In this document: positions 1-46,986 of the stretch, one piece after another
How the letters are laid out: each line of letters starts with the position of its first letter
Position numbering within the stretch: the stretch's first letter is position 1
Source of the DNA: Saururus chinensis
Taxonomy: Eukaryota; Streptophyta; Magnoliopsida; Piperales; Saururaceae
Assembly (NCBI GenBank): GCA_035235625.1
Contig: CP141148.1
Coordinates: 27,281,057 to 27,345,056, forward strand
Reading direction: 5' to 3'
Length of the DNA: 64,000 nucleotides
Translations under genes and position numbers: made by a program
The notes under the pieces: generated by a model
Database searches by the model: none
What the model was told of the DNA's origin: nothing
The model's input: the letters and a program-made list of their open reading frames with translations, nothing else

Positions 1-3000
1 TGCACCTTCTCTTGCATAAAGTATTTTGTTTACAAACTGCACAGTTTACATAAATAATTTCTTCCAATAAATATAAATAACTATAATCAACAACAATAAT
101 GCAAAAGACTCTTCCTCTCTAAGTAATCAATCAGATTGCTGAAAACATCTATTTTATGACAGCAATGTGGCTCAGAATGTGTTGATCTGGTATCTCACAA
201 TGTTTTGGTGTATATCAGCAAGCATGTTGCCATAAAATCAATCACTCAACCAAATATTGGTCCACATAGCACCACTTAAATTTTCCATGATACTGCAGAC
301 TCAAACACAATGCAACTTTAAAAAAGCAAATTAAGTGCTTAACCCGTACAGACTCTACAAGTGATCAGATTAAAAACCAACCAACATTCACATCCAACTT
401 AAAAAAATGTCTGATATTGACCATATAGCAAGTGTATTTATCAAACAGAGTGGATAGACTGGGCATAGATGCAGCTGATGCAACCATATCTCAGCAAAGA
501 AAAAAACAGCAAGAAGGAAGAGGATCATCCCAGGAAAACTTCTGGTCATTTATGAACATCTGTATTACAAGGCCAAAGATGTATCTACGAAGACGCATAT
601 TCATCAAGTTATATGCAACGAGCAATCCACATTCAGCAGTTCCAAAACATAGCTGATATCCACATTCAGTAAAGCACCATACCGTCAATGCATTTCCTTG
701 GCTGTAGGAAAAGCGGGAAGAATTGATGCTGCTAGGATATGTAATTTTAATTAGAGCACCAATAACTCACACATATGAGCAGACTTCTACTGTTTTTTGT
801 CCGCTTCCTCTGTTTAAAATCTTTCCTTTAGGGTGAGTTTGGCAACATAGATTTAAGGAATATGATTTTTAAATGCATGAGATTTGGTCCAAATTCCATG
901 TTTGGGAACCCGTCTTGGATGAGATATGATTTTAGTTTAAATCCCATCCCAATTCCCATGATTTCTATTATAACTAGAAACACACAATTTGGAAATCACA
1001 TCCTGAGATGTATTCTTTTGTAATTCATGGTCATGAGATTTGCTTACTTTTTTGGTACCACCTTGCTTCTTCTCTCCCACAAACCTCTCAGCGTCCTCCT
1101 GCAACCAATCTCTCTCGACTCCACCCTTTTCTCCCCAAACCCTCTCTTGCAAAGTGAAATTGGGTTGTATTTGTTAACCATGTAAACCCCCTCCCCTCTA
1201 TAATTCCACCCTCAAGTGGCATCATTGCTACCTTATATTGCCACCACCTCCGCCCTGTTCTCTTGAGGTGCCATCTCCATCTCATTCACTAGGAACTGAA
1301 CCACCCAGAAAGAGAATGAAACTTATGCCAAAGTACATTTCTTCACACTTTGCAAAAGATGCAAAGGACCAGAATTAGTGTTTTGAGTACTATTAAAATC
1401 TAAATCAAACCCATGGCAAATCCAAATCTTCAAACAAGGGTTTTTAATAGCTCAGCAATAAAATTACACCGTTTCCAAACATTAAAATTTCAAATGCCAA
1501 TTTTGAAAATCACATAATTTGAATTCATGCAATTTTAAATCACACTGAATTAAATATCAAGGTTGCTAAACAAACCCTTACTATTCTTCTTACCAATTTT
1601 TCAAACAAATCTGCTTCTAAACCCCTAATAATTATGCTAAGCTCCTAATTTGTGTCTCTATTTGAATGGAGCAAGAACATATTTTTAAACACAAACTGCA
1701 GCCTTCCATGCAAATTAAACACATAAATGATCGTCCCTAATATTTAAAATAGTTGATCCCAAGATATTACTTCTTTCTACAAGATAGAGATAAATCTGCC
1801 AATAAAAGCTGCTGAATTTACCCAATCCAGCCTTAATCAGTCCGGGTGGATCACCCTCGGTTGTGGGAGAGGACCCAACGTCAACTCCTGTTGGCATAAA
1901 GTGTGTGAGGGTGCTGAGTATGCCTATTAAAAAAAAACATTGCCAAATCCAAGTAACATTTTTCATAGGAAAATGTCCATTTTCATATCTCTATACCCTG
2001 TCCCTGTTCCCACAGACAAGTTGCTTGGTAAATCAGATGATTTCAAGCATGTTTAAATTCTAATCATCTAGTTTAATGTCCCACTGTAAAGATGATAAGC
2101 ATAATATAAAAAGTTCCAGAACAAATAGCAACAGATACAAACACAAAATAAAAAAACTGAAAACTCAAAAATAGGATAAATAAGCAAGGTACACATATAC
2201 CTGACTATAGAACTTCTCAGGGTTTTCTTCTCGCAGATTATGTATATCCAAGGCAACTTTAGCATCACAACCAATTCCTTGTGAACAACAACCAATAGCG
2301 TCAACCTAAAAATCTAAATTATTATGCTGGAGCCTAGATGAACTCTTCTAAGTGTAAAACAGACACAATAAACTATTATATTTACTAAAATGTGCAAGCA
2401 CTACATATCATTTCAGCATTTGTTGGCACTACATATAAAAGGGCAGTACAAGAAAAAAGTACTCATATAATTAAAATGACACCACTTAAGGTGAAAAGAT
2501 CAGATAAAAATCAATTTCTATGCCCTTGCAAACTTATAAGCTATCCTATGCAAAAAAATAGAAAACATTCCAGGTAAAGTACATCAAGGTGATAACACAG
2601 CATTTCAATGAGGAGTTCATTCTTGTGAAATTCCTCCATAGTAAAATACCATTTTATCAGATTTTCTTCAGGAATATACACCACCCACTCCTATAAATTA
2701 AGCATTACAAAATTGTCACTCATTAAAAGTACATCAAAGTGAAAAACAGTGTTTTTCTGAGTGGTTCACTCTTGGGCGGTTCCTCCATGGTAAAAAAACC
2801 ATTTTATCAGATTTTTTTCTAGTAATATGATCCATCCAATCTCAAAAGTTGTGCACTACTAAAATTTTATTCATTATCCCATAGTTGTTCTGAGAAAATC
2901 AAATATATGAGAAGTCAGGTGGTTTGTATAACCAGGTAATTATCTACTGAAATTCTACCACAAAATTTTCCAAATATTTTAAAAAAAAATTGCATACCAA

Positions 3001-4961
3001 GATAGTTATTCATATATTTTGTAAGTTGAACTTGTTTTGCCTGTTGATCACTAACAGTCACTTTCCATCGGTCAAGAATTGTAACTGCTGCATGCTCTAT
3101 ATCATGCAAGACTGTGCACAGACCTCCTTGTCTCTCCACAGCACCAAGACCACCTCCCCATGACAAAACCCGAGCCAAGTCATTGCCAGTTCCCGCTGGA
3201 AGAATTGCAACTGGAGGAGGAGACTCAAAATTTTGCTTATCAATCACATCGAGGACCCATCCTACAGTGCCATCCCCCCCGCAAACAAGAATTCGAAAGT
3301 GAGGAACTTTCCTAAATATAAAAAGGCCAGCTTCTGGTCCTTGTGAGGAACTCAATTCGAAAACCTGAAAGGAGACAACTCCACATGCTAAAATGTAGAT
3401 CTATAATTGGATTAATCACCTAATATATAAAAGCATTTTTTGCCATAACTCATGGCACCTTAAATAGCAAGTCGCTCAAGTCAGTAACACAAAGTCACTA
3501 CTGGGCTTCTGCAATTTGGTCGAATAAGAAAAAGAAGCTTTCTATAATCAAAAGTAAAGGGCACTATTGGTAGTTAAAATATTAAAATTGTTCACCATGC
3601 AAAAGCAGCAATAAATTTTCAAAGCTGGATTTTAACCATTCATAAATTGACCTCATTTTCTATGTAAAACTCCCTGAGCTAGTCTGGTCTGAGCATAAGC
3701 TGCTTATACATATAAAAGCATTTTATTTTCTACCAAGAGACCTTGCATGAACCATATAAGATAGGCAGTTCACATAAATGCCAAATGCAGCCTGAACACT
3801 GTTGGCACTGACCTGAACAGGATTTAAAAGGATGTTCAGCCGATGCCTCAGGGAATCTCCACGCTGGGCCCCACTTTTCTTATTAATAAAAACAAGTAGG
3901 GGTCGCGCATCAGATGGCAAGTCCATTATTTCGTATTTCTGCTTCAATTCTAAAATCTGATTATCATTGCTTTGAACCGATAACCCACTGCTTTTGGGGT
4001 TATACGCTGGCTTTTCCATTCCACCATTGCAGCTTTCCTCAGTTCTGTGAGACCCATTTGACATCCGAGGGCTATCAGCAGTTATATCGAGAGATGAATC
4101 ACCATTGGTAGAGGAGTTACTTGTATGAGTTGTATCACTGGAGTGCTCAATCCCATGTTTATGCTTTTTACTTTGGCTTCTAATAACATCACGGACAGAA
4201 GAAGCCAACTCATTTGCTCCATGAGTGATTGAGCTTAAGAAGCTACCAGAACCACTTCTGCTCAATTCCTTAACATGAAGAGGAGACAAAATTAATCTTT
4301 TAAAAGGACCCAAATCACAGATATCACCAGTTTCATTATACATGCTTGTGTGACACTCAATGTGCACTAGCCTTTGACACCACATACAACACCATATAGG
4401 GGATCCCCCAAGAAAAGATCCAGCAAATGGCTCCTCACAGTAGCTACAGAAACGAGATTCTTCAACTCTATCAGTTAACTCCGTCCACCTGACAGCCCAT
4501 TGGTGGACCACCTCTGTATAACCAAACATTGACACACATTTGCAATCCTTTAAAGCATTAGAGGAACAGCCCAAATGTGCTGCAGCCCCGCATACATTGC
4601 AACGGTGAAAAAAGTGATCCACAGCCATCATTTGTCCGAGAGACTGAGGGGATGAGATGGATTTCAAGCATACACAACAGTTTAAATTTTTTCCATGTGA
4701 ACCAGACAACAAGCTCCATGTATGAGGGGCAACAGGGACATTATGTTTTGCTCTGGGATTCTTTTTGGACTTAGCTACAATCTTCATCCAACTAGAGCTA
4801 AAAGTTCGTCTCCATTGGAAGACAGTGTACAGTATTGACAGTATTCCAATTACAACAGCACTGACAAAAGCAGCAAAGAAAAACTGAGACTCAGCCTGAT
4901 TTGTATGTCTGTTAATCAATTTCTGAAGCATAGTCCAAGAATGTTCTTCAAGATCTCCCAT
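1..4961 (-). CDS. DGK1: Diacylglycerol kinase, cluster I (DGK1/DGK2-like), 5' part; runs off the left edge
   Basis: Phosphorylates diacylglycerol to phosphatidic acid with ATP, in membrane lipid signalling. Coding exons, in gene order: 3813-4961, 2998-3364, 2201-2277 and 1-36 (open at the window edge). All junctions are GT-AG and phases fit (0, 1, 0), giving 543 codons of roughly 710-730 expected. Residues about 27-49 are one hydrophobic N-terminal membrane segment. Two Cys/His-rich C1 domains follow at about 80-145 ([15 protein letters not shown]) and 152-220 (FCSYCEE, WCCMWCQ). A Ser/Thr/Asn-rich linker leads to the catalytic domain, which starts near 355 with [13 protein letters not shown]. 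The nucleotide-binding GGDGT is at 412-416 and [10 protein letters not shown] lies downstream. The last visible exon encodes [12 protein letters not shown], as in the family. The order (TM, two C1, DAGKc) defines plant cluster I; whether DGK1 or DGK2 is the orthologue cannot be settled here. Start is the first in-frame ATG before the membrane segment. Confidence 0.96.
831..1577. mobile_element. Tourist-like (PIF/Harbinger) MITE in a DGK intron
   Basis: A 747-bp non-coding element lies inside the 2164-bp DGK intron (37-2200). The ends are inverted repeats: GGGTGAGTTTGGCAACAT on the left, and on the right a sequence whose reverse complement begins GGGTTTGTTTAGCAACCTTG. The direct repeat TTA flanks both sides (828-830 and 1578-1580), the 3-bp duplication typical of PIF/Harbinger insertion. 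No open frame of note lies inside. Confidence 0.82.
2577..2880. repeat. Two-copy tandem duplication (~151 bp) in a DGK intron
   Basis: The block beginning AAGTACATCAAGGTGA at 2577 recurs as AAGTACATCAAAGTGA at 2728. Both copies share TTCCTCCATRGTAAAA and CCATTTTATCAGATTTT. The copies have diverged by substitutions and small indels. The duplication fills most of the 720-bp intron 2278-2997. Confidence 0.8.
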
Positions 4962-6497: not shown

Positions 6498-6598
6498 TTT
6501 ACTCTTTTTATCTTATTTGTTTTTTTAAAATAAATTAATATTAATTTATTTTAAAAAAAACTGAATAGGATATTTATTTTAGGATAGAAGGAATATTT
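6498..6598. mobile_element. Stowaway-like MITE remnant
   Basis: The ends TACTCTTTTTATCTTA and AGGATAGAAGGAATA are inverted versions of one another. The centre is a palindromic AAATAAATTAATATTAATTTATTT, as in the other Stowaway-like copies in this window. Divergence is high. Confidence 0.5.
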
Positions 6599-6830
6599 CA
6601 TTTGTAATTATTCCTGTGGGGCGTGGGGCATTTAAGTGTTTGGATTTGGAAAAAGGTTGTCCAATTAAATGTTCTATTTTAGGTTGATCACCTGGCTTTT
6701 AACCAAGGACTTAAGGAGTATTTTATTTGTAATTATTCCCGTGGGGCATTTAAGTATTTGGATTTGGAAAAAGGTTGTCCCACATTAAATGTTCTATTTT
6801 AGGTTGATCACCTGGCTTTTAACCAAAGAC
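6589..6830. repeat. Two-copy tandem duplication (~120 bp)
   Basis: The unit containing TTTGTAATTATTCCYGTGGG, TTGGATTTGGAAAAAGGTTG and AGGTTGATCACCTGGCTTTT occurs twice back to back (about 6595-6712 and 6717-6830). Only a few substitutions and a short GGGGCGT insertion in copy 1 separate them, so the duplication is recent. No function is apparent. Confidence 0.85.
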
Positions 6831-9785
6831 TTATTTAGTTTAATTTTTTATGTAGGATTCTTAAACTACCCCATATTTCCATAGCCTCACCTCACGTAAC
6901 TTAAATATGTCCATTTTTCAAATCTCGACACTTAATGCTGGACAAAGGGAGTATTTGTTATTTGTAAAACTTGTTTAGACATAAAATCATGTGCATTTGG
7001 TGTCCACTAATTTGCTCCATCTTATTTGTAGTTGCATGTGATTTCTTTATTTGTTGTACATTATATACAATCTCTATTTTATATTCATCACATAAATTAA
7101 AATAAGCTCAATAATAATTGTTGTGTCTTCATTTGGTTTACTATGGGGGACATTAGTTTTCAACATAATTATTCGTGATAATTATATAAATAGCAGGTCA
7201 AGGTGATGATACTCAAAGGTATGTGATGGCAAGTGTCACAAAGATAAACTTTTGCCTTAGAATCTACCTTGTAATGGCCTAGCTCAGTCGCACAACCAGC
7301 AACCTACTCGACTAGCTTTCACCCAATTTTTTGCACACCAATAAATAGGAAGAAGATATAAAAAGAAGCTCTACCCCAAACCTTTATTCCAATAATCAAT
7401 ACTCAAAATTATAAGGAACAATGACCTCTACCTTGCCCCTAAACCCAAAGAACCAAACTCCACTCACACTAGACAGCACACCTACAAAGTTGACCCTGGT
7501 CAACTCACCTGTTAGCTCACATCTTTAGAACTGTTTATAGCTTACATTGATCTACCATGTGGTTGAATGCCCTCTCATTCAATCTATCTGCCCCTTATAT
7601 AGGGGTGAGGGTCTAGGGTAGCCTAGTGTTTCTAGAACTTTGTTGTCCTTTTATAGATTTGTCATACAAATAACTCATCCCGATTCAACTAGGAAACATG
7701 CATACAATCCTACCCAAGACAGTACCTGGAGTCTCCAACTTAGCTAGAAATCAACTTGCGCCCTCCTTTAAGAGTTTTGCCTACATCTGCCTTCAAGCTT
7801 CCTACTCTTACTCAAAGTCCTTAGTTTATATGCATGTAGCCTCAACAAAATTCGCCTTGCGTTCATCTCTTAATGGAGTCCAAAATATGCTAGGATTTGG
7901 TTGTCTTGAGTTATCCTTGTAAGCAATTGTTGCCAACACATTTCCTACTTATATTAAGCCTCTGCTCACACTCCCAATCGTGTTAGGACACTTTTCAATG
8001 ACCAAATACCAGCTAAGTCTTCATCAGCATGCACTTAGCCATCCATCTAGTGTAAAGTATGTTGCTTGTGGTTGCCCACATGTGCCCTTGATCCAGCCTT
8101 GTATCTGAATCCTATGCCAAATAGGAGTCTCTCACATATGTCACGTATGCATAGGACTCCCCCTATGCTAATGGCGCCAAGCTCTCCACCGAGTCCCATT
8201 CTGAGTAGGACTTCAATAAATCAGCCGCCAACAAGGTCGATGCACACACCTGCCCCAAAAGTGTGTATGCCTTGGTCGTTTGCATGCCAAGTTGAGGGGT
8301 TACCTAGACCTTTTGCCTATCAAGTGGCTAGGGGTCTAAAGCATACCATAACACTATTATTTTTATCTTACTAGATTTGTGATTGTTGAGAGACCTTATT
8401 GTATCAATAAGAGATATCATTTGACAAATATTATTTAATTGAATAATGTTGGTACTTTGTAATTGAAAAAGGAATTTCTTGCTCATAATTTTTGTTATTT
8501 GATATTTTTCCTTGTCCTTTATTTGTATTTATTCATTGTATTTCTATATAATTTGGGTTGGGCCAATGCCCATTTGCCCCATTTGGCTAGTCTGGTCTAA
8601 GTGGGCATTGTAGCCATTTAAATGAAGAGCGTTGATATAGCGAGTTTGGTGCTCAATTGGATTTATATCCGATGGATGCAATTGCACACGTGAGTTCACT
8701 TAAATGAAACCCATGTGTGTAATGGTAGTCGTTAGATTGAAAAGTAGTGGTTGCTAAGCCTTGTAAGTGCCTAAAGTTTTATATCAAATCCAAATAAATA
8801 TTATTTAGTTCATATAACAAATTTGAGTTTCAAAACACTAACTTTCTAAGTTGTGTTAGTTTGGCCCCTCGTTGTGATAACAAATTAATAAGGATCAAAG
8901 ATGAGGTTCATTACACTACACTATTTATTTTTACGTTTGTAAAAATACTAGCTAGAATGCACACCATAATGCGTATAAATATATATTAGATAAGATAAAA
9001 CAAAATAAAATAAAAAATATATCTATTGAACAAAGGTCTCCCTTGCATGCTATAGTTACAATACATATTTTTAGGATCATAATAACTATAAATTATGCAC
9101 ACAAACTTTGTATTGACCTAAATACAATTATAATAGACAACTATGAGTCTAAATCTCATAAGCTAAATATATGTCATAGGTTGGCAAAGACAATGTTCTT
9201 GAATGACTTTCTTTGTTAGAGCGCGTTATTCATATTTAGGACCAGTTTGGTGGTAATTCTTATTTGATAGAGCTCTTCCAGAGTTTTCCAATGACACCAA
9301 AAATACGTAAATCCGAACATATATAATATAGGCAAAAAAATAAAATTATTATTTAGAACTATGTTGTATAAGTGGAGCCTATAAAAAAGTTCGAGAAAAA
9401 TAATCATGTGGCATCTCATTTGATAGAGCTCATCAAGAGATTTGTAACGATACCAATAATGCGGAATCTAAGTTCAGGAGTATAAGATATAATAACATAA
9501 CCTAAAATTTAGGGTTTATGTCATATCAACCTCTAGTATTATGTTTCTCAAGCTTTAACATACCCGAGCTTGGCCAAAATGGAAATGATGAGGGTGTGAT
9601 AAGATGAGTTCTAACCCAAGCCTGAACTAGATCAAAGTAGAAGAAGAATATGAGATTGAAAGTAAAAACACAAGAAAACATGAAGTAACTTGATTCATTT
9701 ACCTTAGATGAAGTTTTCTCTTCTTGAGAAGGGGTGGAGCACTCTAAACCATTCAAATATCTCAGCCCACCCAAAATGGGAGGAA
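6831..9785. other. Intergenic DNA, no recognised gene
   Basis: AT-rich sequence with short frames only. About 7200-8400 is somewhat less AT-rich and repeat-like in character (runs of Pro/Ser-type frames, no domain), probably an old LTR or transposon fragment, but I could not find its ends. Nothing else supportable. Confidence 0.5.
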
Positions 9786-26904: not shown

Positions 26905-29900
26905 TGTCACGCCCTGGCGATGCCCGACCCGAGCCGAACCCAGTCCAAGGGCCGGTCAAGCGCGCGGGGGCGACGAAGTGAAATTGAGAAACGATTCTGG
27001 CGGAAGACTTAATCCCTAACCACGGGCGATTAACAGCAACACGGAGTGCGCACAATCCTTTGAGCAAGAGTAAATAAAAGGGGAAGAAAAGGTGTTGCTT
27101 AACACAAAGTAAACAACAATCTCAAACCCACAAGCTTAGTTTTAAGTAAAGCCCACACCGGCTCAAAATAAGTCATAAGCAAACATAACTGTAACATGTG
27201 ACATAAATCTACAACAAAGAACCCTACACATAGGTTCTAACATAAAACATGAAACAAAATGAAGGAAAGTCACGCAACGATCTCCATCATCACACCCAAG
27301 CTACCTCTGACCTTTCCTCAAAAAGGCAATCCTGTCCGTCTGCGTGTCGCACCACGCAGCCCCAAATCAAAACACAAAAGAGGGGTGAGTTTTAACACTC
27401 AACAATGTTTTTAATATCACTGTCAACGTAGAAAATACGATAGCTTAGAAATGAGATCGTTTCAGATCAAAGATTTACATGGTGCATCACTTTCTGATCA
27501 CACATTCATATCACTTAACACTGCATAAAAATGCATAATTCAACCTGCATGGATGTATCTCTAGCATACATATTCCCACATGCATTCACATCATAACCAA
27601 TCCCGCATGGATGTATCTCTAACATACATATTCCACATGCATAACATCAACATCAATATGCATGGATGTATCTCTAACATACATATTCCACATGCATAAC
27701 ATCAAAATCAACATGCATGGATGTATCTCTAACATACATATTCCACATGCATAACATCAACATCAACATGCATGGATGTATCTCTAACATACATATTCCC
27801 ACATGCATAATGTTATCACAATCAACCTCCATCAAGGAGTAATCACACATTGACGTCACACGTACGGCAGCATAGACAAGGCCACGAAGGCGTGTCATGG
27901 TACAAAATTCTACACAAGAATTCAAGAAAGATCGGGGTTGTCAATCCCTAATACTGCTCGCCCTGGACGATCCTGGCCAAGGATGTCCCATTCTCACACA
28001 TAGAATCTAGAGCAGGGGGGTTCGCCAGTGGACATCTCTGCGGAGGGAAGAGCCCGAGTTCTCACACGTAGAACCCTAGAACACGTGGTAGCGGGGTGCA
28101 CACGGCATACCACACCGGATTCTCGTGGTCCAGATGACACACATAATGATATTCTCACATATCCGCAAGACAAGTACACAACTCGTCCCCACATTATTCC
28201 ATTAAACAAGACTCAACCCGGGGAGTGCACTCGTTCCACACAGGAACTCCAAATCGTTCCACACAGGAACTTCAAATCGAAATATGTCCTTTCGGACCAA
28301 TCAACTTGCGATTAATCCACGACCGATAAACCCGGCACGCAATTCCATCACATTGCATCCAATCGGTCAAATTCGATTAATCACGATGAAGCCTCAATTG
28401 GAAATCCATTTTCATGATGCGTGCAACATGGTACATGCGTGGGCAAAGCATACATGAACCCTAATCATGATAAGTGCTCTCACTAGCCCCTAATGCATCA
28501 TTCATAATCACGATATTAAGCTTCAACATCATCATTTAACCCCCACATGTGTGTGTGTGTAACTAGTAGAAGCCTTTCACATGATGCATATTAACATGCT
28601 TGAAAATCAACTCACTACCACATTACACATGTGAATTTCTACCTAAACATGAATTCCAGCGGAAATCATAGTAGAAGAATCGTTGAAATCTTAGCTAGAT
28701 TCAAAACTCAACCACAAAGGCTAAACACCTATAACATCACTCATTTCATCATTGAGTCATAGTATTCACCAACATTCACACACCATTAATCACAATTTAT
28801 CATGACAAATCTGTCCAACAATGATTGTAGTCCTACTGAAATATGCTTAACCAAAGGGAAACAACTATTCATAATTTCAAAATAACGATTCCAACATCAT
28901 GCCACAAAACATAAGTCATTCCACCATCACTAAGCATATATCTCAACTCCATAAACTCAATAGCATGCATTTCCAGTAGCCTAACATAGCTTAAAACACT
29001 CCACATTCATATAAAATTGGCAAGCCAAAGTGAAATCATCAAAATAGGCATCATACACACAACATGCAAATTTCCTGTGTAGCCGATCGATCGCCCTTCA
29101 GGCCGTTCGATCGGTTACACGCAAAATTTTGAAATTTTCAGTTCAGCCGATCGATCGCCCTGCAAGGCCGATCGATCGCCAACACAGCAGAACAGTCATC
29201 TTCTTCCTTTCGCAAATCCAAACCGAAACATCATAGATAGCACTTCAAATCCACATCTAACACCCTAATCATCATCAAAAGTCCTCATTGACTTCCAGAA
29301 TATCAAACCAAACCATAATAATGCAAAACCCTAAGAAATCGGGATTAAATAATTCCATTTTCTAATCTTACCATTAACACACTAAATCAAGAAAACCATT
29401 TCGAAATAAGCCAAAAATGAAGAGTTTTACCATGGATAAACAGAGATTTCGAAGACCCATTACCTCAGCACTTGATTAAGCTCGGATTGAAGAGTCACCC
29501 TTCTTGAAATCCTTGAAAACACAATGAGTTTGAATCAAACACCAATAGAAATCGATTTACTTAAGAAATCCTTAATTAAATCTTAGATCTAGGGCTTGTT
29601 GGTAGTAAAAATCGAATTTTGAAAGTTAGGGTTTGTAGTAAAACACAAATCAGTAGCTTTTGATGGTCAAAAACGAATTGAATCAAGAGGAAAATGGTAG
29701 ATTTAGAAGAAATTAAGAGAAAAGCCATGGATTAGTGCTTAATTAGAGCAAGCTTACCTTAATCGGCTTCTAATTCGGGCCTAAGTGGGGATTAGGCCAG
29801 ACCTCCTTCTTTAGCCTATTCCCAAAAATGGAAATGGCTCTGGTTTGCCCTTTTATAGTAAGGGTTGGGGTAGGCATAGGTAAGTTTTGGGGTGTAAATA

Positions 29901-31280: not shown

Positions 31281-34200
31281 ATGACGCCGGTGAAGGGCTC
31301 CAAGACCCCGAGGTCGAAACTCCCCGACCCAGGGAAAGTTTCAGAAAATCTGAATCCGAATTCTTCCAATCCCCGCACTCCCGTGAGGATTCTGAAATCC
31401 CCTCCGGTTGCTTCGTCGAAATCGAGGACACCCATTGCGAGAAATCCGAGTCCGGCTCCGTCGCCAGTTCCAATTGAAGGGAGGAAGTTCGTAGTGGCCA
31501 AGAAGAGCTCAAGGATAGAGTCTAGCGCCCGGAATCCAGACAGACGAATGGCCGAGGAGAAAATATGTAGTCCAAAGAAGAAAAGTGCTTGCGTCGCGTT
31601 GGATAACCCTCTAGCTTCGCAGAAAGCATTTTCTAAGGCTGAGATGGGAGAACAAGGGAAGGGAGGAGGAGTTGGGGTTGAAATAGGGGAGAAGTCTCAT
31701 CTCGACTGTTTAGAGGGACATGGGACTTCGGAGATTGGGTCTGACAAACAGGATTCTGAGGAGCCAGAACTGTCCCCGGAGATGGGTAGTGCAAAGATCA
31801 GGAAAGTTAGGCACAGGTTGATGGAAGAGGCTCGGACCAGCGTTCCTGAATCGGGTTCTGGAAGAGTGGTACATCTGGTCAAGGCCTTTGAGAGGCTTCT
31901 TTCAATCCCTCATCCTAGCGAGTCAAAGGACACGGACGGAGAAGAGGACCAGGAAAAGCAGAAGGGCATGAAATGGGTACTTCCAGGATTGCGAGTGAAG
32001 GCTGAAATTACACCAGATACTCATCTTTCTTCTTCAAAGTCTAGTTCGCAGCCGGATTTCGTCTTCACTTCAAAATCTATTGAGATGGGTTCCAGCGTTT
32101 CTGCTTCAGTCGACAGCAGCGATGAAAGGTTAGTATGAAATTATATTAAGAAGAGATGCAAAGTAAATCTACTTCGAATTTGATTGTCATTGTCTTTTAA
32201 ATGCTTTTAATTTTAGTCACAAGCATAGAAAATGGTATGCTTAGCAACATATGCAATTATTACATTAACGTATTAACATTTACCTTCCCCATATTGATTG
32301 AGTATTCTGTGATTCTTTCTGGAACACTAGTATTAGTAGCAGGACATCTGGAGGAGGCAGGAGAAGCCGTCAGAATGTAAGATATCTTATGGTATACGCA
32401 TCTTTAATTTTCCTTTGGAGCTCTTGAATCAAAATTGAGATGTTTTGTTCATTCCAGAGTTCAGGATCTTCAAGTAAGACATGTGGGAGTAAATGGAAGA
32501 AAAAACTTAAAGCAACCTGCCAACAGCCATTCAAATTAAGAACAGAGGTAACCATTATCCGAAATGATGGCAATTATGTTTTGGAGTCCGTGGAAAACTT
32601 TAACTTTTTAAGCAAATGGGAAGTCCTCACCATGTGGAATGGAAGATTCATTGGAATAAAATAGATGCCTTTCAATTAAAGAATTTGGTATCATTGAATA
32701 AAAGATGTCATTTCTAGTCTAGAATCAGCATAATTTTCTCAATAAAAGTTATCATTACTCATAATTATAATAGTAGAATTCTGGGGTCAATTTGGTAGAA
32801 AAAGTTAACTTGTAAAGTAACTTGCAATTCCTCTCGATACGGTTCTAAATATTCTAATGCTTTTTAACACTCCAATAAGCATCTATTGGAATCAAGTATT
32901 TAGTTAATTATCTATTTTTACATGGTATTCTAGAACCCTCTTAACTTTCTCTATAAAGGTAAAAAGATTTTTCCCAGTGCAGTAAGATTTTCAAGATCAT
33001 TGAGATTTTCTATTACGGTAATGCTTTTCAGCAAAGAGGTGCATTTAAACAAGAAGAGTTCCACAAGAAAGTGGAGGAAATTTACTTACAGGAGCGAAAA
33101 CAGAGATTACCAATTGCTCAGGGCCTCCCATGGACGAATGAGGAACCAGAGGTAAGAAAGCGGTATTATTGTTGTTCTTTTAAGTATCAGAAATCATTCT
33201 TAGTTTCTCTAGCTAATGCAAAACTGATCATTGATCAATCAAGAAGCTAACATGGCATACAAATTAATACTTTTTTTCCTTTCGACATGTCAAGGCACAA
33301 AAATTATGCACAGAATGTGTATCGTGTGTGTGAGGAGGGAAGGGAGGAAGAGAGATTACAAATTTACTCTATGATGGATTCAATAATAGGTTACATAGTA
33401 CAATTTGTGTTTTGTTTGCTATGAATGTGTTTATCATTTGTATTTTGATGGATATACGACTTCAGTGCTTGGTGAAACCTCCAGTCAAGGGAAGCACAAG
33501 GCCGACAGATATTTACCTACACAGTGATTTGCGTGCTCTTGACCGAGCTGAGTTTGATCAACTGGTAAGTCAAAGATATCAAAAATTAACACATGAGAAT
33601 TGTTTGTTTCTTATGTCAAACACTTGAAGAAGGATCGACATGAAGGCCTAGGCTGGCCTTAAAGAATTGCAGTAGTCAAGCCACTATCTTGTACGTAGTC
33701 CTACAATCTTTACCTTCACAGTAGAAAGAGCTAATAGCATTTTTTATGCAAATATCAGATTGCTGAGAAGATGTGGTCAATAGAGCAATACAGATTGGAA
33801 AGGGAAAGACGGCAAAAGGTCAGTATTCGGCAGCAGATATACTTTCCACAAAGCTTCCATTATTACAAGTAGAAAATTGCGCTTATAAAATTATTACCTT
33901 GAAATATTTGGACAGTCACGTGTGGTATATGTGTCTTCTGTTAGGCTGAAGAAGAGGAAGAAATTAGGAGGTTGAGGCGAGAACTTGTGCCAAAAGCTCA
34001 GCCAATGCCTTATTTTGATAGGCCTTTCATCCCAAAAAGGTGAGAGATCATATGGACTGTTACTTGGAAATTTTCATGACTAGTTGGGATAAATATAGCT
34101 CAGTGTAAACTTATTAATTCGGCATGACTATAACATACACTGTTGGAAGGATTTATCTTTACTGACTACTGTGATTTTCATTATTAGAAAGGTTTTTAGG

Positions 34201-37200
34201 TTCATGCTGCATCTATATTTACCAACTTTAAAAAAAAAAACAGTGCATTTGTCATTTATGTCGTCCACTAGCAGTAAATGTTTCTGTTTTTTACCAATTA
34301 ACAAATCAGAAACATTTACTGCAAGTGGACGACATAAATGACAAATGCAATGTTTTTTTTTAAAAAAAGGTAAATTGTGGTGACATCTAAAATGATGTGC
34401 AATTCTGGTCATATACATGACATTTATGGCTTATCTTACACAAGCTGCTCTCTCTTTATTACTTGTAGATGAAGTGTAAGATGGTCTCAAATGGGGGAAT
34501 GCCTCAGTTTTCATTTGTTATCTAAAATTTACTCTGATTTTCTTTCAAAAGGTCAGAAAAAGTTAGTTTCACATAATAGTTCCTTTCTCAAGCTGCACAA
34601 ACCCAGATATTTTTTCTCACATGCTATAGATTTCTACAATGATCTAGCTCTTGTTTCTCCTGGAGCCATTTTTTTTCCTTTTTTTTTTCGCACTTACATA
34701 TTAGCAAAAGCTTGCCTAAGATCTTCAGACGACAAATTTGCATGAATTGTTGCCACTGGGGCATAAAAAAAGGCAATAAGACACTCTCCTAAACCACCGA
34801 TTTACCGTGTGAATTCAGCTAAACAATATTAATGCTTACACAGGTTATCTCATTGCAGTAAAGTAGTGCAGTTGTGTTTATCATTTTTTGATTTATGTTA
34901 GCTTTTCATGTCTGCGGCCACTTTTCATTTCTCATTGTAGAATTATAGATTAAGTGGTCTTTTGGATGAAAATTTCTGAAGGGAAATGGAACGCCATTTA
35001 ACAGATTTTACTTTTTAAAAGGGGGAATCAAAATGGCCTCATGTTTGGGAACACTTATCAGAGACCATTTTAGTGTAAGTATATATCTGATTTGTCCTTT
35101 ATATGGCCATCATTCTGTGACCATATTCTCCACCACCTCTGGTCTGCTCTTCCCTCCATCTGTGTCTGTAAGTCTCCGGCCCCATCTTCAGAAGACATTC
35201 CAGCTCCCAGAGACATAGTTTCTGTATTAATCCCATCATCTTCAGTATCTTTGCGACGATGATGTAATGTGACCGCATCCAACATTGACCTTCAACACCA
35301 TCTATTCTAGCAGGTATTAGAATATCGATATGACAAGCTATCGTATGAGCCACATAATAGGGTTGTTTACCATGATAATTTTATCCAGTCTATACAATAG
35401 GACATGCTATAGTGTGATCAGTTCTACTCTAAGAAGCCCTGTTGTATGGTCATTTACTAGTGTTATTTTGTTAGTATATACGTTGGATACACTATTGTGT
35501 GATCGACTATGTGCTAAGAAGCCTAACGTATGGGTCGTTTACTAGTATTATTTTGTTAGTATATATGATGGGTCATTTACTAGTGTTATTATTTTGTTAG
35601 TATATACGATGGGTCATTTACTAGTGTTATTTTGTTCGTATATATGATAGATACACTATTGTGTGATCGACTATGCGCTAAGAAGCCCTAATGTATGGGT
35701 CATTTACTAGTATTATATTGTTAGTATACATGATAGATATGCTATCATGTGATGGGGTCTATGCTAAGAAGTCCTATCGTTGGGTCATTTACCAAAGTTA
35801 TGTTCTCAGTATACATGATAGGACACACTATCGTGTGATTAACTATATGCTAAGAAGTCCTATCACGAAGTCATTTATCAAGGTCATTTCCTTAGTATAT
35901 ACATTTGAACATGCCATCATGTGATTGATTCTATGCTAAGAAGTCCTATTGTAAGGTTGTTTATGAGGGTTAGTGGAAGGAGGATTGTGCCTTCTTGGTG
36001 GTGGAAAAATGGCGCTTTAGGTGGAAGGGTGAGCAGTGCTTTGTTTTCTTGTCGACGGATGAAAGGTAGGGGCTTTTAGGTGAGGGAAGAAAGGAGTTTA
36101 GGACTAGAGGAAAGGTGGAGCAACGCCTTCTTCAAGGTAGACAAAATGAGGCTTTTGGGGGAAGTGATCATCAGTGACTTCATCATCTTGCTAGTGGATG
36201 AAAGGGTAAGGAGGAGCAACAATATCTTTGTGATGGAAGAAAGGGGCAACGAGAAGCAGCGCTGATCATCTGGGAGGCAAAAAAATAGGAGTGTGTTAGG
36301 GCAAGGAGGAACCCAATGAAAATGATAAACACCAAGGGCTTATGGGTCAACAACGACTATCCTCACCTTTCAAAATGATAGTAGATACTTTTATTGAATA
36401 TTTTTTCTATATATTTAATAAGGGCCAAGGTGGAACAAATTGCTTCATCATGTCTAGGTGAGGGAAGAAAGGGGATTTAGGGTTAGAGGAAGGTGGAGCA
36501 ATGCCTTCTTCAAGGTAGAGAAAATGAGGCTTTTGGGGGAAGTGATGACCAATGACTTCATCCATCATCTTGCTAGTGGATGAAAGGGTAAGGAGAAGCA
36601 ACAATATCTTTATGACGGAAGAAAGGGGTAATGATAAGTAGCGCCGATCATCTTGGAGGCAAAAAGATAGAAGTGTGTTAGGGCAAGGAGGAGCCAAATG
36701 AAAATGGTAAAAACCAAGGGCTTATGGGTCAACAATGGCTATCTTTTCTTTTCAAAATGATAGTAGGTACTTTAACTTAGCATTTTTCTATATATTTATA
36801 ATGGGGACCGTTTTGGATACATCATTAATTAGGTAATCAAAAGAACTTTTAATGATTTTTTTGTCATTTAAAGAAAATCAAAATAGGGTCATATTGGAAA
36901 AAAGATAGGGAGTGTGTTAGGGTAAGGAGGAGCCCAATGAAAATGGTAAACGGGTCAACAATGGCTATCCTCTCCTTTCAAAATGGTAGTAGGTACTTTT
37001 AGTGAGTATATATTTGATAAGGGCCATTTGAATACATCTTTAGTTAGGTAATGAAATGAACTTTTAATGATTTTTTGTCAATTAAAGAAAATCAAAATAG
37101 GGTCATATTTGTGTATGTCTTTGTGATGAATTTTAGATGACTTTTACATTTAGTACCTAAAATGATGAAACCCAACAACATGTAGAAGAGAGGGAAGAAA

Positions 37201-40200
37201 GGGGCCAAGGAGGACATGTCTAGGAGAGGGAAGAAAGGGGCTTTAAGGTTAGAGGAAGCTAGATTAACACCTTCTTCAAGGTAGACAAAATGAGGCCTTT
37301 GGGGGAAGTGATGACCAGTGACTTTATCTTCTTGCTAGTAGATGACAGGGTAACGAGGGGAGTAACAATATTTGTATGATGGAAGAAAACAAGAAGTAGC
37401 ACCAATCATTTTGGAGGCAAAAAGATAGGAGTGTTTTGGGACAAGGAGGAGCCCAATGAAAATGGTAAAGACCAAGTGCTTATGGGTCAACAACAGCTAT
37501 CCTTTCTTTTCAAAATGATAGTATGTACTTTTAGCGAGTATTTTTTTCTATATATTTAATAGAGGCTGTTTGGATACATCTTTAGTTAGGTAATGAAATA
37601 AACTTTTAAAGATTTTTTGTCTTTTAAAGAAAATCAAAATAGGGTCATATTTGTGTTTGTCTTTGTGATGAATTTTAGATGAAATGTACTTGTAGATGAC
37701 TTTTACCTTTAGTACATAAAATGATGAAACCCAACAACATGTAGAAGAGAGGGAAGAAAAGGGACAAGGAAGAACAATGCTTTCATCGTGTCTAGGTGAG
37801 GGAAGAAAGGGGCTTTAAGGTTAGAGGAAGGTGGAGCAACGCCCTCTTCAAGGTAGACAAAATGATGCTTTTGGGGGAAGTGATGACTAGTGAATTCATC
37901 TTCTTTGCTAGTGGATGAAAGGGTAAGGAGGAGCAACAATATCTTTGTGATGGAAGAAAGGGGCAATGAGAAGCAACACCGATCATCTTGGAGGCAAAAA
38001 AATAGGAGTGTGTTAAGGCAAGGCGGAGCCCAATGAAAATAATAAACACCAAGGGCTTATGAGTCAACAACGACTATCCTCTCCTTTCAAAATGATAGTA
38101 GTACTTTTAGTAAGTATTTTTTTCTATATATCCCAATGAAAATGGTAAACACCAAGGGCTTATGGGTCAACAACGACTATCCTCTCCTTTCAAAATGATA
38201 GTAGTACTTTTAGTGAGTATTTTTTTTTATATATTCAATAAGGACCATTTAGATACATCTTTAGTTACGTAATGAAATGAAGTTTTAATGATTTTTTGTC
38301 CTTTAAAGAAAATCAAAATAGGGTCATATTTGTGTCTTTTTTTTAAATGAATTTTTGATGAAATATACTTTTAGATGGCTTTTACCTTTAGGAACGAAAA
38401 ATGATGAAACCTAACTAACAACATGTAGAAGAGAGGGAAGAAAGGGGCTAAGGAGGAACAATGCCTTCATCGTGTCTAAGTGAAGGAAGAAAGGGGCTTT
38501 AAGGTTAAAGGAAGGTGATGCAACACCTTCTCTAAGGTAGACAAAATGATGCTTCTGGGGGAAGTGATGACTAGTGACTTCACCTTCTTGCTAGTGGATG
38601 AAAGGGTAAGGTGAAGAAACAATAATTTCATGATGGAAGAAAGGGGCAACGAGAATAGGAGTGTGTTAGGGCAAGGAGGAGCCCAATGAAAATGGTAAAC
38701 ACAAAGGGCTTATGGGTCAACAACGGCTATCCTCTCCTTTCAAAGTAATAGTAGGTACTTTTAGTAAATATTTTTTTCTATATATTTAATAGGGGCCGTT
38801 TCGATACATCTTTAGTTAGGTAATAAAATGAACTTTTAAAGATTTTATGTCTTTAAAGAAAATAAAAATAGGGTTATATTTGTGTATGCCTTTGTGATGA
38901 ATTTTAGATGAAATGTACTTTAGATGACTTTTACCTTTACTATGTAAAATGATGAAACCCAACAACATGTAGAAGAGAGGGAAGAAATGAGCCAAGGAGG
39001 AACAACACCTTCATCGTGTCTAGATGAGGGAAGAAAGGGGCTTTAAGGTTAGAGGAAGGTGAAGTAACGCCTTCTTCAAGGTAGACAAAATGACGCTTTT
39101 GGGGGAAGTGATGACTAATGACTTCATCTTCTTGCTAGTGGATGAAAGGGTGAGGAGGTGCAACAACATCTTTGTGATGGAAGAAAGGGGCAACGAGAAG
39201 CAACACCGATCATCTTAGAGGCAAAAAGATAGGAGTATGTTAGGGCAAGGAGGAGCCCAATGAAAATGGTAAACACCAAGGGCTTATGGGTCAACAAGGA
39301 CTATCTTCTCCTCTCAAAATGAAAGTAGTACTTTTAGTGAGTATTTTTTTTCTATATATTTAATAGTGGCTATTTAGATACATCTTTAGTTAGATAATGA
39401 AATAAAGTTTTATTAATTTTTGTCCATTTAAGAAATTTAAAATACTGTCATATTTGTGTCTGGTTTTTAGATGAATTTTAGATGAAATGTACTTTTAGAT
39501 GACTTTTACCTTTAGGCATGTAAAATGATGAAACCTAACTAACAACATGTAGAAGAGGCTAAGGAGGAACAACGCCTTCATCGTGTCTAGGTGAAGGAAG
39601 AAAGAGGCTTTAAGGTTAAAGGAAGGTGATGCAACACCTTCTCTAAGGTAAACAAAATGATGCTCCTGGGGGAAGTGATGACTAGTGACTTCACCTTCTT
39701 GCTAGTAGATGAAAGGCTAAGGAGGAGCAACAATATCTATGTGATGGAAGAAAGAGGCAACGAGAAGTAGCGCCGCGCCTATCATCTTGGAGGCTAAAAG
39801 ATAGGAGTGTGTTAGCAACGGGTATCATCTCCTTTCAAAATGATAGTAGGTACTCTTTTAGTGAGTATTTTTTTTTCTGTATATTTAATAGGGGCCGTTT
39901 GGATACATCTTCAGTTAGGTAATGAAATGAACTTTTGAAGATTTCTTATTGTTTAAAGGAAATTAAAATAGGGTCATATTTGTGTATGTCTTTGTGATGA
40001 ATTTTATACGAAATGAACTTTTAGAGATGACTTTTTACCTTTAGTGCATAAAATGATAAAACCCAACAACATGTACAAGAGAGGGAAGAAAGGGGGGCCA
40101 AGGAGGGAACAACACCTTCTTCAAGGTAGATAAAATGAGGCTTTTGGGGGAACTAATGATGAGTGACTTCATCTTTTTGTTAGTCGAGGAAAGGGTAAGG

Positions 40201-41095
40201 AGGAGCAACAATATCTTTGTGATGGAAAAAAGGGAAACAAAAAGTAGCGCCGATTATCTTGGAGGCAAAAAGATAAGAGTGTGTTAGGGCAAGGAGGAGC
40301 CTAATGAAAATTGTAAACACCAAGGGCTTATAGGTCAACAATAATTATCATCTCCTTTCAAAATGATAGTAGGTACTTTTAGTGAGTATTTTTTATTATA
40401 TATTTAATAGGGGTTGTTTGGATACATCTTTAGTTAAGTAATAAAATGTACTTTCAATTATTTTTTGTACTTTAAAGGAAATCAAAATGTGATGAATTTT
40501 AGATAAAATGTGCTTTTACCTTTAGTACGTAAAATACCTTTAGTACAAAAAATGATGAAACCAATAACAAGTAGAAAAGAATAAGTGAGATGAAGGTTGC
40601 TATATTTTACAACATTGAAATAAAAAATGTCCTTTCTCAAAAGAAGGTTTTATGAGAAATAGCTTTTTGAGTTCACTTCAAGATGATTTGACATTAAGTG
40701 CACTTTTCTAACCATTTCACTAGAAAAGTCATTTACACTAAAATGACTCATCCAAAAGAAATGAAAATAGGCTCTAAAGCCCACTTTCCTAGACATGGTT
40801 TCACTTGAAGCGGGTGAGTTGTACACACATACAGAGGGAGGAGGGGTGCATACAAGAGGAGAGAACAAACACTTCTTTCAATTGCTTTTTTCCTGCCTGT
40901 TTACCATTTCTTGTCCTGTAAAATTCTATAAAGTTATTGTTTTAAGATCATTAAAAATTGCTAGCTTTGCATCTTTCCTCCATATTTTTAGCATTTCTCG
41001 TTCTGTAACATGCTAGTTGTTTCTTGTTTTTTTGAAGGTCATCAAGAGTTCCTAACATGCAAAGAGTGCCAGATTTCCACATCCCACAACCATAG
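31281..41095 (+). CDS. TPX2-domain microtubule-associated protein (TPX2-like)
   Basis: Predicted to bind microtubules, probably in the spindle or phragmoplast; the exact member of the plant TPX2-like family is not assigned. Eight exons: 31281-32128, 32331-32376, 32458-32547, 33032-33151, 33466-33564, 33759-33818, 33945-34039 and 41038-41095. All junctions are GT-AG, all phases fit, and they sum to 1416 nt (471 aa plus stop). Residues 1-280 are low-complexity, Ser/Pro/Lys-rich, with many T/S-P sites (TPVKGSKTP near the start). The C-terminal third carries the TPX2 domain: PFKLRTEQRG, QERKQRLPIAQGLPW, CLVKPPVKGSTRP, LHSDLRALDRAEFDQ, then a charged helix EEEEEIRRLRRELVPKAQP and PYFDRPFIPKRSS. 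The last exon adds only 19 residues ending HIPQP. The first in-frame ATG is used. The last intron is 6998 bp, far longer than the others (81-484 bp). Confidence 0.93.
34221..34372. repeat. Long near-perfect hairpin in the last TPX2 intron
   Basis: Arms 34241-34286 and 34307-34352 are inverted copies, 46 bp each with two mismatches, separated by a 20-nt loop. Weaker pairing of A-run and T-run sequence continues outward to about 34221 and 34372. The arms contain GTCATTTATGTCGTCCACT. It lies in sense orientation of the gene and would be transcribed within the intron. It could be a young MIRNA-like precursor or a foldback transposon; the sequence alone does not decide. Confidence 0.85.
35340..35965. 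repeat. Tandem minisatellite, ~86-bp unit, in the last TPX2 intron
   Basis: Units share GCTAAGAAGYCCTA (near 35426, 35513, 35680, 35762, 35849 and 35935), GGGTCATTTACTAGTGTTAT and ACACTATYGTGTGATYGACT. Most spacings are about 82-87 bp. A shorter unit of about 56 bp is duplicated between 35540 and 35640, widening one spacing to about 168 bp. Confidence 0.85.
36000..40575. repeat. Satellite-like tandem array, ~480-770-bp units, in the last TPX2 intron
   Basis: At least eight diverged head-to-tail units. The marker AAGGTAGACAAAATGAGGCT and variants appear near 36134, 36511, 37279, 37849, 38535, 39078, 39645 and 40125. Other shared blocks are GGGCCGTTTGGATACATCTT, TAGTTAGGTAATGAAATGAA, AAGAAAATCAAAATAGGGTC and CAACATGTAGAAGAGAGGG. 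Typical spacing is about 545-570 bp, with deleted or extended units giving 377 to 768. Short open frames of 60-100 codons on either strand repeat with the units and show no domain, so I do not treat them as genes. Confidence 0.9.
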
Positions 41096-41680
41096 AATAA
41101 GGTTAAGAGCAGCAGCACTGTTCAGGAAGGGGACTGACTACTTCCATCAACACTACTAGTGACAATTGGTGCATTAGTTGATCATTCTTTAATTCATTTC
41201 GTCAATGAAAGCAACCCCAAATGGTTACTTTTGTAATTTGACATGGCGAACGCATCCAAGTAAATTGGAAAAATAAGTTGTGTGGGCTATTACTGTTGTA
41301 ATTTGACATGGTAAGTTTACAGTTTTGCACTTTACAATTAAAACTCCAAATATAAGTCGCAAAATGGTTTTCTAATGATAAAACAAAAAATGTTGTTCAC
41401 ACCGTTCAAAAATCCAGCATCCAAAATAGCATCCTAGGGTTCCGTTGAATTCTTTTAAGGATTGCAATTGATATAAATCCCCATTCTTTAAGGTAGAAAG
41501 CAGCGTCCAAAACAGCAATGAAACAAAGCAATGGGAGTTCACATTTCTCCTCCATAATTGAGCCATAAGAAATTGCGGAATATTAACTAAAACTAATCAA
41601 TTCAAACAAGAAAAATTCTCAACTAACGGGCATAACAGAATTTCTATAGAAAAAGGGATGTGAAACTTGCAAGAACATCC
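41096..41680. other. Interval between the convergent TPX2 and RPS19 genes
   Basis: 585 bp between the two stop codons, which must hold both 3' untranslated regions. A short motif TTGTAATTTGACATGG occurs twice (near 41233 and 41295). No gene seen. Confidence 0.6.
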
Positions 41681-43380: not shown

Positions 43381-43690
43381 TACGTAGTAGATAAGATCAT
43401 TAAATTTTTAACACCTTTAATAGTTTTTACGTAATTGAAAGTGACTTAAATTTAGGTTTTGACTTGAGTATATGTGTTACGACACGTAGTAGATAAGTTC
43501 ATTAAATTTTTAACACGTTTAATAGTTTTTACCGATTTGAAAGTGAGTGAATTTAGGTTTTGACTTGAGTATATGTGTTACGACACCTAATAGATAAGTT
43601 CATTAAATTTTAACACATTTAATAGTTTTTATGTATTTGAAAGTCAATAAATTTAGGTTGTAACTTGAGTATACGTGTTACAACATGAAA
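43381..43690. repeat. Three-copy tandem repeat (~104 bp) upstream of RPS19
   Basis: Three consecutive units each containing TAGATAAGWTCATTAAATTT, TTTAATAGTTTTTA and GACTTGAGTATATGTGTTAC start near 43386, 43490 and 43595. The third copy is the most diverged. They begin about 300 bp upstream of the RPS19 start codon, so they may lie in or beyond its promoter. Confidence 0.85.
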
Positions 43691-45468: not shown

Positions 45469-45508
45469 ATGACCATTGATATCCTATCACAAAGCAAAAG
45501 GAGAGCAG

Positions 45509-46986
45509 ATGACATGTCCGGTTTCTCTGTACTGCTGCTTCGGTGGCGATTTTGTGACTAGTGAAGGCAAGATTCGTTATGTTGGAGGCAAGGCACGGGT
45601 CATACATGTCCATCCTTCCATTGGATACCTGGATCTTCTGTCCAAAGCAGCCGTCGTGAGTGGCAGTGCACCAACCAGTCTGCAAATGAAATACAAATAC
45701 CCGGCTTTTGAATTGGATCGCACTCTAGTTTGCATTGATGGAGATGAAGATGTTTCCAATATGATGATAGCATTTGATGGAGCCCCCAGTTGTCGTCCTC
45801 CTCTTGAGCTCTACATATTCCCAAATGCAGAAAATTCATCTCCAATTTTTGCTAGGTGGGTACAAAACCTCCGATTCTTGGAAAAGCTCTTATTAAATAC
45901 TGACCCAATATTTATCTCCAATTCTTCTTCATTTAACAACTTAGTTCTTTCACTCTGGTGTCTTTAGCCCATGATCATATTGTGATTATTATAATTGATT
46001 TATTTATTTTTGTCATTAGGAGCCTTCAACAGGAAGCCAATGAGCGAGACAAGATTGTAACTCCAGTAAGACGAGAAACATCTACAGCGTGCTTGCAGGA
46101 ACCTCAAAATGATGGACTTCCACACTACTCACCTAATCTATCAGAACAAGTTGAGACTGCACTGGAAGAGCAAGATTTGCCCAAAATTTCTCATGTTGAA
46201 TCGCCAAACTCAAGTTTTACTTTGAAAGATGGTTTGGAATTTCCAGATTTGGCTTCACTTAAGATTGCAGTTCGTGAGCAAGCAATTTGTCAGCATGTTA
46301 AGTTGAAGCCGTTGAGGACCGACCCAAGGCGATATACAGTAAAATGCTCAGATGAAGGTTGTTCATGGAGTTTGCGTGCTACTAGGGTCGGTGCTTCATC
46401 TACCTTTCGAATAATGTCCTTGAAGAAAAACCACACATGTATGCCGTCATCAGATACGACCCATAAACAAGCAACCACTAAGTGGATTGCCAGCTTTATA
46501 AAGGCTCACCCCAAGGGAAATGCAAATTACACAATAAAAGATATTGTCAACGACCTCAATGCTCGATACAATATAGATGTAAGTTATAATAAAGCTTGGA
46601 GAGCCAAAAAGTTAGCTAGTAAGGAGATACAGCAAAGCCATTATGTGTCTATGGGTACTGTTGGTGCAGGTAACAAGGCTACAGAACACAAGGACTTGAC
46701 ATCAGGGAAGAAATGCAGCGACAAAGCTAATGAATCTGGAGAGAAGGCTTCAAAAGCATGTGAGGATAATGAAAATTTTGTGGCTTGTTTATGCCTTTCC
46801 CAGGATGACCATAACAAATTGAACTGCAAGTCTGCCCTGGGGAACAAAAGAGTGATGGGGCCTAGTAGTTACGCTGACTTACCAGGCTCGAGTTTCGATT
46901 TGGAAGAGGATGCAGAATTTCCAGATTTGACTGCCCTGATGAATGAGTTCGTCAGCATTCAGGAAGAACCTTTTTTTCATCTATAA
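45509..46986 (+). CDS. PB1 and MuDR DNA-binding-domain protein; MUSTANG-like, lacking the transposase catalytic domain
   Basis: Two exons, 45509-45855 and 46020-46986, joined GT-AG in frame: 437 aa plus stop. Residues about 5-104 look like a PB1 domain (VSLYCCFGGDFVTSEGKIRY at the start, acidic IDGDEDVSNMM at 76-86). Residues 187-315 are a plant MuDR DNA-binding domain with a WRKY-GCM1-type zinc finger, C225-X4-C230-X23-H254-X-C256, followed by the conserved NYTIKDIVNDL ... VSYNKAWRAKKLA segment. MUSTANG-B and related Mutator proteins continue into a DDE transposase and SWIM finger; here the frame ends after about 120 low-complexity residues. Near the C-terminus SSFDLEEDAEFPDL echoes SSFTLKDGLEFPDL, which begins the MuDR domain. 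It could be a domesticated transcription-factor-like gene or a decayed transposase gene. The open frame and clean intron favour a maintained protein, but expression is unknown. ATG 45509 is the first in frame with PB1; a non-ATG frame extends to 45476, so an upstream exon is possible. Confidence 0.7.

Follow-up and report, generated by a model that had tools for sequence, protein, structure and literature searches.

A tandem-repeat-filled last intron in an MDP60/TPXL5-like gene of Saururus chinensis and its probable methylation history

How does a plant gene come to carry, and perhaps to tolerate, a 7-kb last intron filled with tandem repeats? The question is raised by a 64,000-nucleotide stretch of Saururus chinensis DNA (GenBank assembly GCA_035235625.1, contig CP141148.1, forward-strand positions 27,281,057 to 27,345,056), which is called the window here and whose first letter is position 1. 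A predicted gene model, re-derived from its splice sites and open frame, comprises eight coding exons on the plus strand (31281-41095) and gives a product of 469 amino acids resembling MDP60 and TPXL5. Its seventh and last intron (34040-41037; 6998 bp, GT-AG, phase 2) contains two degenerate tandem arrays, one of ~86-bp units (35360-35953, seven BLAST blocks) and one of ~560-bp units (490-570 bp; 36084-40585, about eight partial copies in 11 BLAST blocks). The original prediction for this DNA had reported a repeat-filled 7-kb last intron with two separate arrays, of about 86-bp units at 35340-35965 and of about 545-570-bp units at 36000-40575; the re-derived gene model confirmed the intron, and Tandem Repeats Finder (TRF) and BLAST agreed on the arrays. 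The best overall explanation is probably that an old repeat island has been kept as CG- and CHG-methylated heterochromatin (H being A, C or T) inside a gene that is still in use, and the evidence for it starts with a shortage of the trinucleotides CAG and CTG.

The CAG/CTG shortage of intron 7

Deamination converts CAG and CTG into TAG, CAA, TTG or CTA. In four plants, CHG methylation at CAG/CTG was reported to exceed that at CCG, in heterochromatin at least, and in Arabidopsis the CHG methylation of heterochromatic CAG/CTG sites was described as mostly CMT3-dependent (PMC5221884); CHG methylation also served as a heterochromatin mark for rice introns (PMC7145194). We counted CAG plus CTG against dinucleotide shuffles (1000 per segment, 2000 for the consensus of the repeat unit), with the reversed trinucleotides GAC plus GTC, equal in composition, as the control. 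The 560-bp array (36000-40585) contains 15 CAG/CTG sites versus 102.0 in shuffles, none of the 1000 shuffles being as low, and its control count is 72 versus 76.0. The 86-bp array (35340-35965) has 4 versus 13.6, again with no shuffle as low (control, 17 versus 12.5). The shortage also extends to the non-array part on the right, up to exon 8 (40586-41037), where 5 sites stand against 12.7 and 0 of 1000 shuffles reached so low a count. Divided at the next CAG/CTG site, a border chosen for that reason, this part has 0 versus 6.8 in 40586-40831 and 5 versus 5.9 in 40832-41037; its first 246 bp are free of such sites, a run of that length being reached in 1 of 1000 shuffles. Exon 8 with the 3' region (14 versus 16.6), the other exons and the left part of intron 7 (41 versus 34.4) showed normal counts.

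By means of a 1-kb profile, the list of sites and the segment shuffles, a CAG/CTG-poor domain was delimited at 35440-40831, which we read as a putative fossil of CHG methylation. Its edges were set afterwards at neighbouring CAG/CTG sites, and the segments tested by shuffling include ones with independently set edges. The shortage begins inside the 86-bp array and ends about 200 bp before exon 8. Along the profile, the 1-kb CAG/CTG ratio goes from about 1.1 to 0.04-0.28 in the domain and is 1.0 past exon 8. Of the 15 lowest values among 253 overlapping 1-kb windows, 14 fall wholly or for the most part within the domain (the remaining one is at 8251), and intron 7 contains the four longest CAG/CTG-free gaps in the entire 64 kb. 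CAG and CTG are equally short, with observed/expected ratios (o/e) of 0.15 and 0.20. Such symmetric loss fits a strand-symmetric mutation process and would not be expected if selection had acted only against splice acceptors on the sense strand. As a separate observation, a second CAG/CTG-poor stretch is present at 8251-9750 (o/e 0.11-0.24 in 1-kb windows); two open reading frames (ORFs) of ~110 amino acids in or beside it had no Pfam match.

Divergence of the repeat copies

The ~560-bp family, in which internal deletions and one 103-bp duplication (38029-38234) were found, was split into ten segments for alignment, and distances were calculated for those pairs that shared more than 250 sites (39 of 45). 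In these longer pairs the p-distance ranges from 0.069 to 0.188 around a mean of 0.136, the mean for transversions being 0.050, and such divergence suggests an age of millions of years at the usual plant rates. Transitions between copies affected 28 of 110 alignment cells at CG, 126 of 1587 at CHH and 1 of 16 at CHG, together with 35 of 1452 at A and 33 of 1282 at T. CG exceeded CHH with a Fisher p of 1.2e-7, in a comparison in which the cells of related copies are not independent. Columns with both TG and CA derivatives account for 6 of 17 at CG, and the next among the other 15 dinucleotides is GG, with 10 of 73. Both derivatives were likewise seen in 2 of 5 CAG and 1 of 7 CTG columns versus 1 of 13 GAC and 0 of 7 GTC columns, which is the expected direction in a small number of columns. 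Because CAG/CTG loss covers the arrays and the right flank, and because CG transitions are in excess between copies, a history of long-term CG and CHG methylation of the arrays appears likely. The proposal that the array may attract heterochromatin, put forward in the original prediction, thus receives support from the sequence.

Several observations weigh against this explanation. CHG transitions after amplification are not raised, the 16 cells being too few to show continued erosion, so that most of the CHG loss would be older than the amplification, or saturated. CHH transitions (0.079) exceed those at A and T (0.024-0.026), which means that a general AT bias is also acting. CG depletion is gene-wide and does not single out the array: the CG o/e is 0.33 in the array, 0.30 in the rest of intron 7 and 0.49 in introns 1-6, and depletion is weakest in the 86-bp array (0.70). 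Given this distribution, the outer intron looks like CG-only gene-body methylation and the array like heterochromatin. The CAG/CTG shortage itself is not unique to intron 7, since the intergenic region at 10-31 kb is also low (o/e 0.59), although less so than the array. Moreover, the array copies share one ancestor and their counts are not independent; the 86-bp array and the right flank, which are different sequence, agree with them.

One alternative is plain neutral growth of the intron by tandem duplication, without special chromatin, in which the CAG/CTG shortage would be a chance property of the founding units. This would account for a shortage common to the copies by descent, as the consensus of the ~560-bp unit already has 0 sites versus 13.8 in shuffles (0 of 2000 as low), and for the fact that the remaining CHG sites in the copies mutate no faster than CHH. 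However, the shortage is common to two distinct repeat families and to a flank without repeats, counts in the left part of intron 7 are normal, and CG transitions are raised between the copies. We therefore regard neutral growth as unlikely.

As to the nature of the repeats, the original prediction spoke of satellites. The tandem arrays are real, but, in terms of classical satellite traits, the ~560-bp family has about eight copies with 7-19% divergence and no match elsewhere in the 64 kb (no part of intron 7 matched anything outside itself in the window at E<=1e-6). Because the copies are so degenerate, a decayed minisatellite-like array is, judged by sequence, the closer description. A transposable element (TE) origin of the unit was rejected, as none of the 25 inverted-repeat pairs listed for the intron frames the array as terminal repeats and no match exists elsewhere in the window. 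Three further short tandem arrays occur at 43388-43685 (100 bp x3), 27540-27810 (55 bp x4.9) and 6588-6833 (120 bp x2), so small arrays are not rare in the window. The intron self-match and the inverted-repeat search also revealed a foldback resembling a miniature inverted-repeat TE at 34217-34375, with arms of 64 nt at 92% and 23 nt at 83%. It is the only strong inverted-repeat pair in intron 7 and sits in the left part, outside the CAG/CTG-poor domain. The predicted RNA fold of 34205-34390 has -89.1 kcal/mol (z -16), and the foldback could be a small-RNA source. Scans for tRNAs and Rfam families gave no matches.

The gene, its product and the last exon

Exons 1-7, with short introns 1-6, occupy 31281-34039 on the plus strand and are supported by splice sites, an open frame, Pfam and homologues; the coding exons lie at 31281-32128, 32337-32376, 32458-32547, 33032-33151, 33466-33564, 33759-33818 and 33945-34039. 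All seven introns are GT-AG, and their lengths (208, 81, 484, 314, 194, 126 and 6998 bp) were the same on re-derivation as the 6998 bp and 81-484 bp first given for the final intron and the other six. In Pfam, the predicted protein has the TPX2 domain PF06886 at residues 384-454 (E 2.6e-23) and no other domain at E<=1e-3, in a scan that did not search separately for the Aurora-binding stretch. A true TPX2, by the definition cited in PMC7139753, also needs N-terminal Aurora-binding and importin domains, and the Pfam scan did not recover this canonical plant arrangement of Aurora-binding and TPX2_importin domains. Searched against the protein collection, the product had 605 homologues at E<=1e-3; 120 of them were listed and aligned with the query (121 proteins), and counts out of 120 refer to these. 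Among the matches listed, Aristolochia and Persea rank first (best Aristolochia, 52% identity), identity is 43-52% for nearly all and reaches 68% in one that covers a third of the query, and most cover 90-100% of the query, TPX2 domain included. Many are named microtubule-destabilizing protein 60-like and two are named like AT5G15510; the placement in the family rests on homologue names and similarity rather than on a tree.

At5g15510 is TPXL5, whose group is described as being mainly on cortical microtubules; TPXL5 expression reportedly resembles that of TPX2 and the Aurora kinases, and TPXL5 was able to relocate Aurora1 (PMC7139753). MDP60 is listed for light-controlled hypocotyl elongation (PMC10653773). 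The label of a TPX2-like gene is thus correct as far as the domain is concerned, but the relatives are MDP60-like or TPXL5-like proteins and not canonical TPX2, and the designation as a mitotic gene goes beyond these data; in view of the expression of TPXL5 and its effect on Aurora1, the protein may nevertheless have a mitotic role.

The last coding exon (41038-41095, stop included) was placed by the frame, by tail searches and by the alignment. Its 58 bp agree with the original prediction, but they hold one base of codon 451, 18 whole codons and the stop rather than 19 conserved residues, and conservation is moderate, with 9 of 18 residues agreeing with the consensus of the 120 homologues. 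When four homologue tails were searched in 33.9-42.0 kb, exon 8 was the best match for three (E 4.8e-4, 0.003 and 0.044), and for the fourth, from Aristolochia, it was not among the 20 matches listed. The exon 7/intron 7 junction reads AG|GTGAG, and unspliced RNA would continue as AGG TGA, that is, the same arginine 451 followed directly by a stop. Retention of intron 7 would hence yield a 451-residue protein in which PF06886 scores 79 bits versus 82.2 in the 469-residue form. Intron retention or early polyadenylation would probably remove only the last 18 residues and leave the domain nearly whole, at low cost.

The proposed course of events is as follows. The arrays would have drawn CHG methylation through the CMT3/KYP pathway, and deamination would then have eroded CAG/CTG and CG. 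The polymerase would read through intron 7, which would normally be spliced out, perhaps aided by an IBM2/EDM2-type complex, to give the 469-residue protein; where splicing failed or polyadenylation came early, the 451-residue protein without the last 18 residues would be made. Since almost the whole TPX2 domain would survive in the shorter form, such failures probably cost little, and the repeat island may be tolerated. That this is a tolerated, low-cost heterochromatic intron is, in our judgement, somewhat favoured.

A switch like that of IBM1 is a less probable alternative. Array methylation would decide between a 451-residue form polyadenylated in the intron and the 469-residue form, and the gene would sense heterochromatin. 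The anatomy resembles the long methylated repeat intron of IBM1 (PMC11265718), and retention of intron 7 gives an immediate stop. Among the 120 listed homologues, P0071 and P0100 stop precisely where exon 7 ends, and the tails of P0013 and P0112 are unrelated beyond that point; these four suggest that the gene may have alternative 3' ends in other plants. Nevertheless, only 18 residues separate the two products, and in Arabidopsis reduced methylation was reported to leave full-length transcripts of most genes with such introns unchanged, IBM1 and PPD7 being given as exceptions (PMC11265718). In 35340-40830, moreover, AATAAA is at the shuffle level (7 versus 7.0), and extra poly(A) signals were rejected. 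Sense-strand acceptor-like sites in the same interval are not above chance (1 versus 2.7 in shuffles). A pseudo-exon in each repeat unit was also set aside, because acceptors are lacking; GGTRAG donors number 12 versus 4.6, but they are copies of one another. With acceptors and AATAAA at chance, nothing was found in the array that pushes towards pseudo-exons or early ends, and the effect on splicing or polyadenylation put forward in the original prediction is hypothetical. The switch is, on this evidence, improbable, and its extension by analogy to IBM1, in which the tandem-array intron would be a heterochromatin-sensing terminator whose methylation sets the 451/469 ratio and thereby different C-terminal tails, is very doubtful. 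On the antisense strand of 35340-40830, 14 acceptor-like sites were counted, all TAG (shuffles, 11.8 for any type and 6.8 for TAG). As a general by-product, CAG deamination could remove cryptic 3' splice sites, and an ageing methylated intron could in this way become splice-quiet.

It might also be argued that the gene in effect ends at exon 7, the array having severed exon 8, which would then be a relic, and the 451-residue form being the main product. The consensus match of 9 of 18, the Aristolochia tail that lacks a listed match to exon 8, and the survival of the domain without exon 8 point in this direction. So does the stop: a loose KKIKC-like pattern is present within the last 60 residues of 106 of the 120 listed homologues, and here the stop comes before it, the codons past the stop reading NKVKSSS (41090-41115). 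However, the splice sites and frame are intact, three Aristolochia proteins have only 9, 10 and 12 of 18 consensus matches, seven proteins score lower than the query's 9, and the query is also the lowest of the 121 in the 101 columns preceding exon 7 (70 matches). Exon 8 is thus no special outlier, a special decay of it is not supported because the earlier exons encode divergent sequence as well, and we hold a relic exon to be quite improbable. An assembly artefact, with copies misjoined, collapsed or misplaced, is highly improbable: tandem arrays are a usual place for such errors, but copies that differ by 7-19% in the longer pairs and by many indels should be placed by long reads, and exon 8 follows in frame.

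Elsewhere in the window, a diacylglycerol kinase 1-like gene lies on the minus strand at 2918-4961, its best match (72%) being in Aristolochia californica, and two ORFs at 45473-46983, in which a PB1 domain and the DNA-binding domain of a MuDR transposase were identified, look like a gene derived from a Mutator-like element.

Comparison with known systems

A literature search on intronic satellites, intronic minisatellites and CHG depletion yielded no close parallel among the titles and abstracts listed, which says little about what is in print. Tandem repeats upstream of the Arabidopsis gene SDC are said to recruit non-CG methylation; the Saururus chinensis gene shares tandem repeats at a gene with SDC, in which the repeats are upstream and not intronic. 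Within its protein family, the gene is like MDP60 and TPXL5 (At5g15510) in homologue names and in a TPX2 domain at the C terminus, but the Saururus chinensis protein stops before the KKIKC..SWND-type tail.

In rice, 5,809 heterochromatic introns were reported in 4,227 gene models (11%), longer than other introns and 5'-biased (PMC7145194). In Arabidopsis, non-CG methylation was found in introns above 1 kb in 109 of the 705 genes having such introns, and methylated introns showed more mutation (PMC11265718). The view that intronic arrays in active genes are unusual was therefore overstated in the original prediction. The open frame and exon 8 agree with a gene that would still be transcribed through the intron, as in this class. 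The repeat content and greater length that characterise the class are seen here, in two arrays and 6998 bp versus 81-484 bp, and the present case appears to fit the known class of heterochromatic plant introns, the tandem arrays and the last-intron position being less usual.

The Saururus chinensis intron resembles the IBM2/OsIBM2-regulated introns of rice and Arabidopsis in being a long, repeat-bearing intron inside an open gene, and it has the sequence footprint expected from CG and CHG methylation. It differs in having tandem arrays in a last intron, and its methylation is inferred only. In IBM1, intron 7 is a methylated repeat intron that acts as a sensor: how it is processed decides between a short and a long product, the methylation being located in the JmjC domain region and the long form being described as the functional one (PMC11265718), whereas here only 18 post-domain residues would be lost. 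Should the switch nevertheless be true, intron heterochromatin would determine the product of one more gene. Our data suggest that sequence may by itself reveal the formerly heterochromatic part of an intron, since CAG/CTG loss delimits the repeat domain and CG loss does not. Introns of this class are known mainly as promoter-proximal ones that bear TEs; the Saururus chinensis gene contributes an example with tandem repeats in the last intron.

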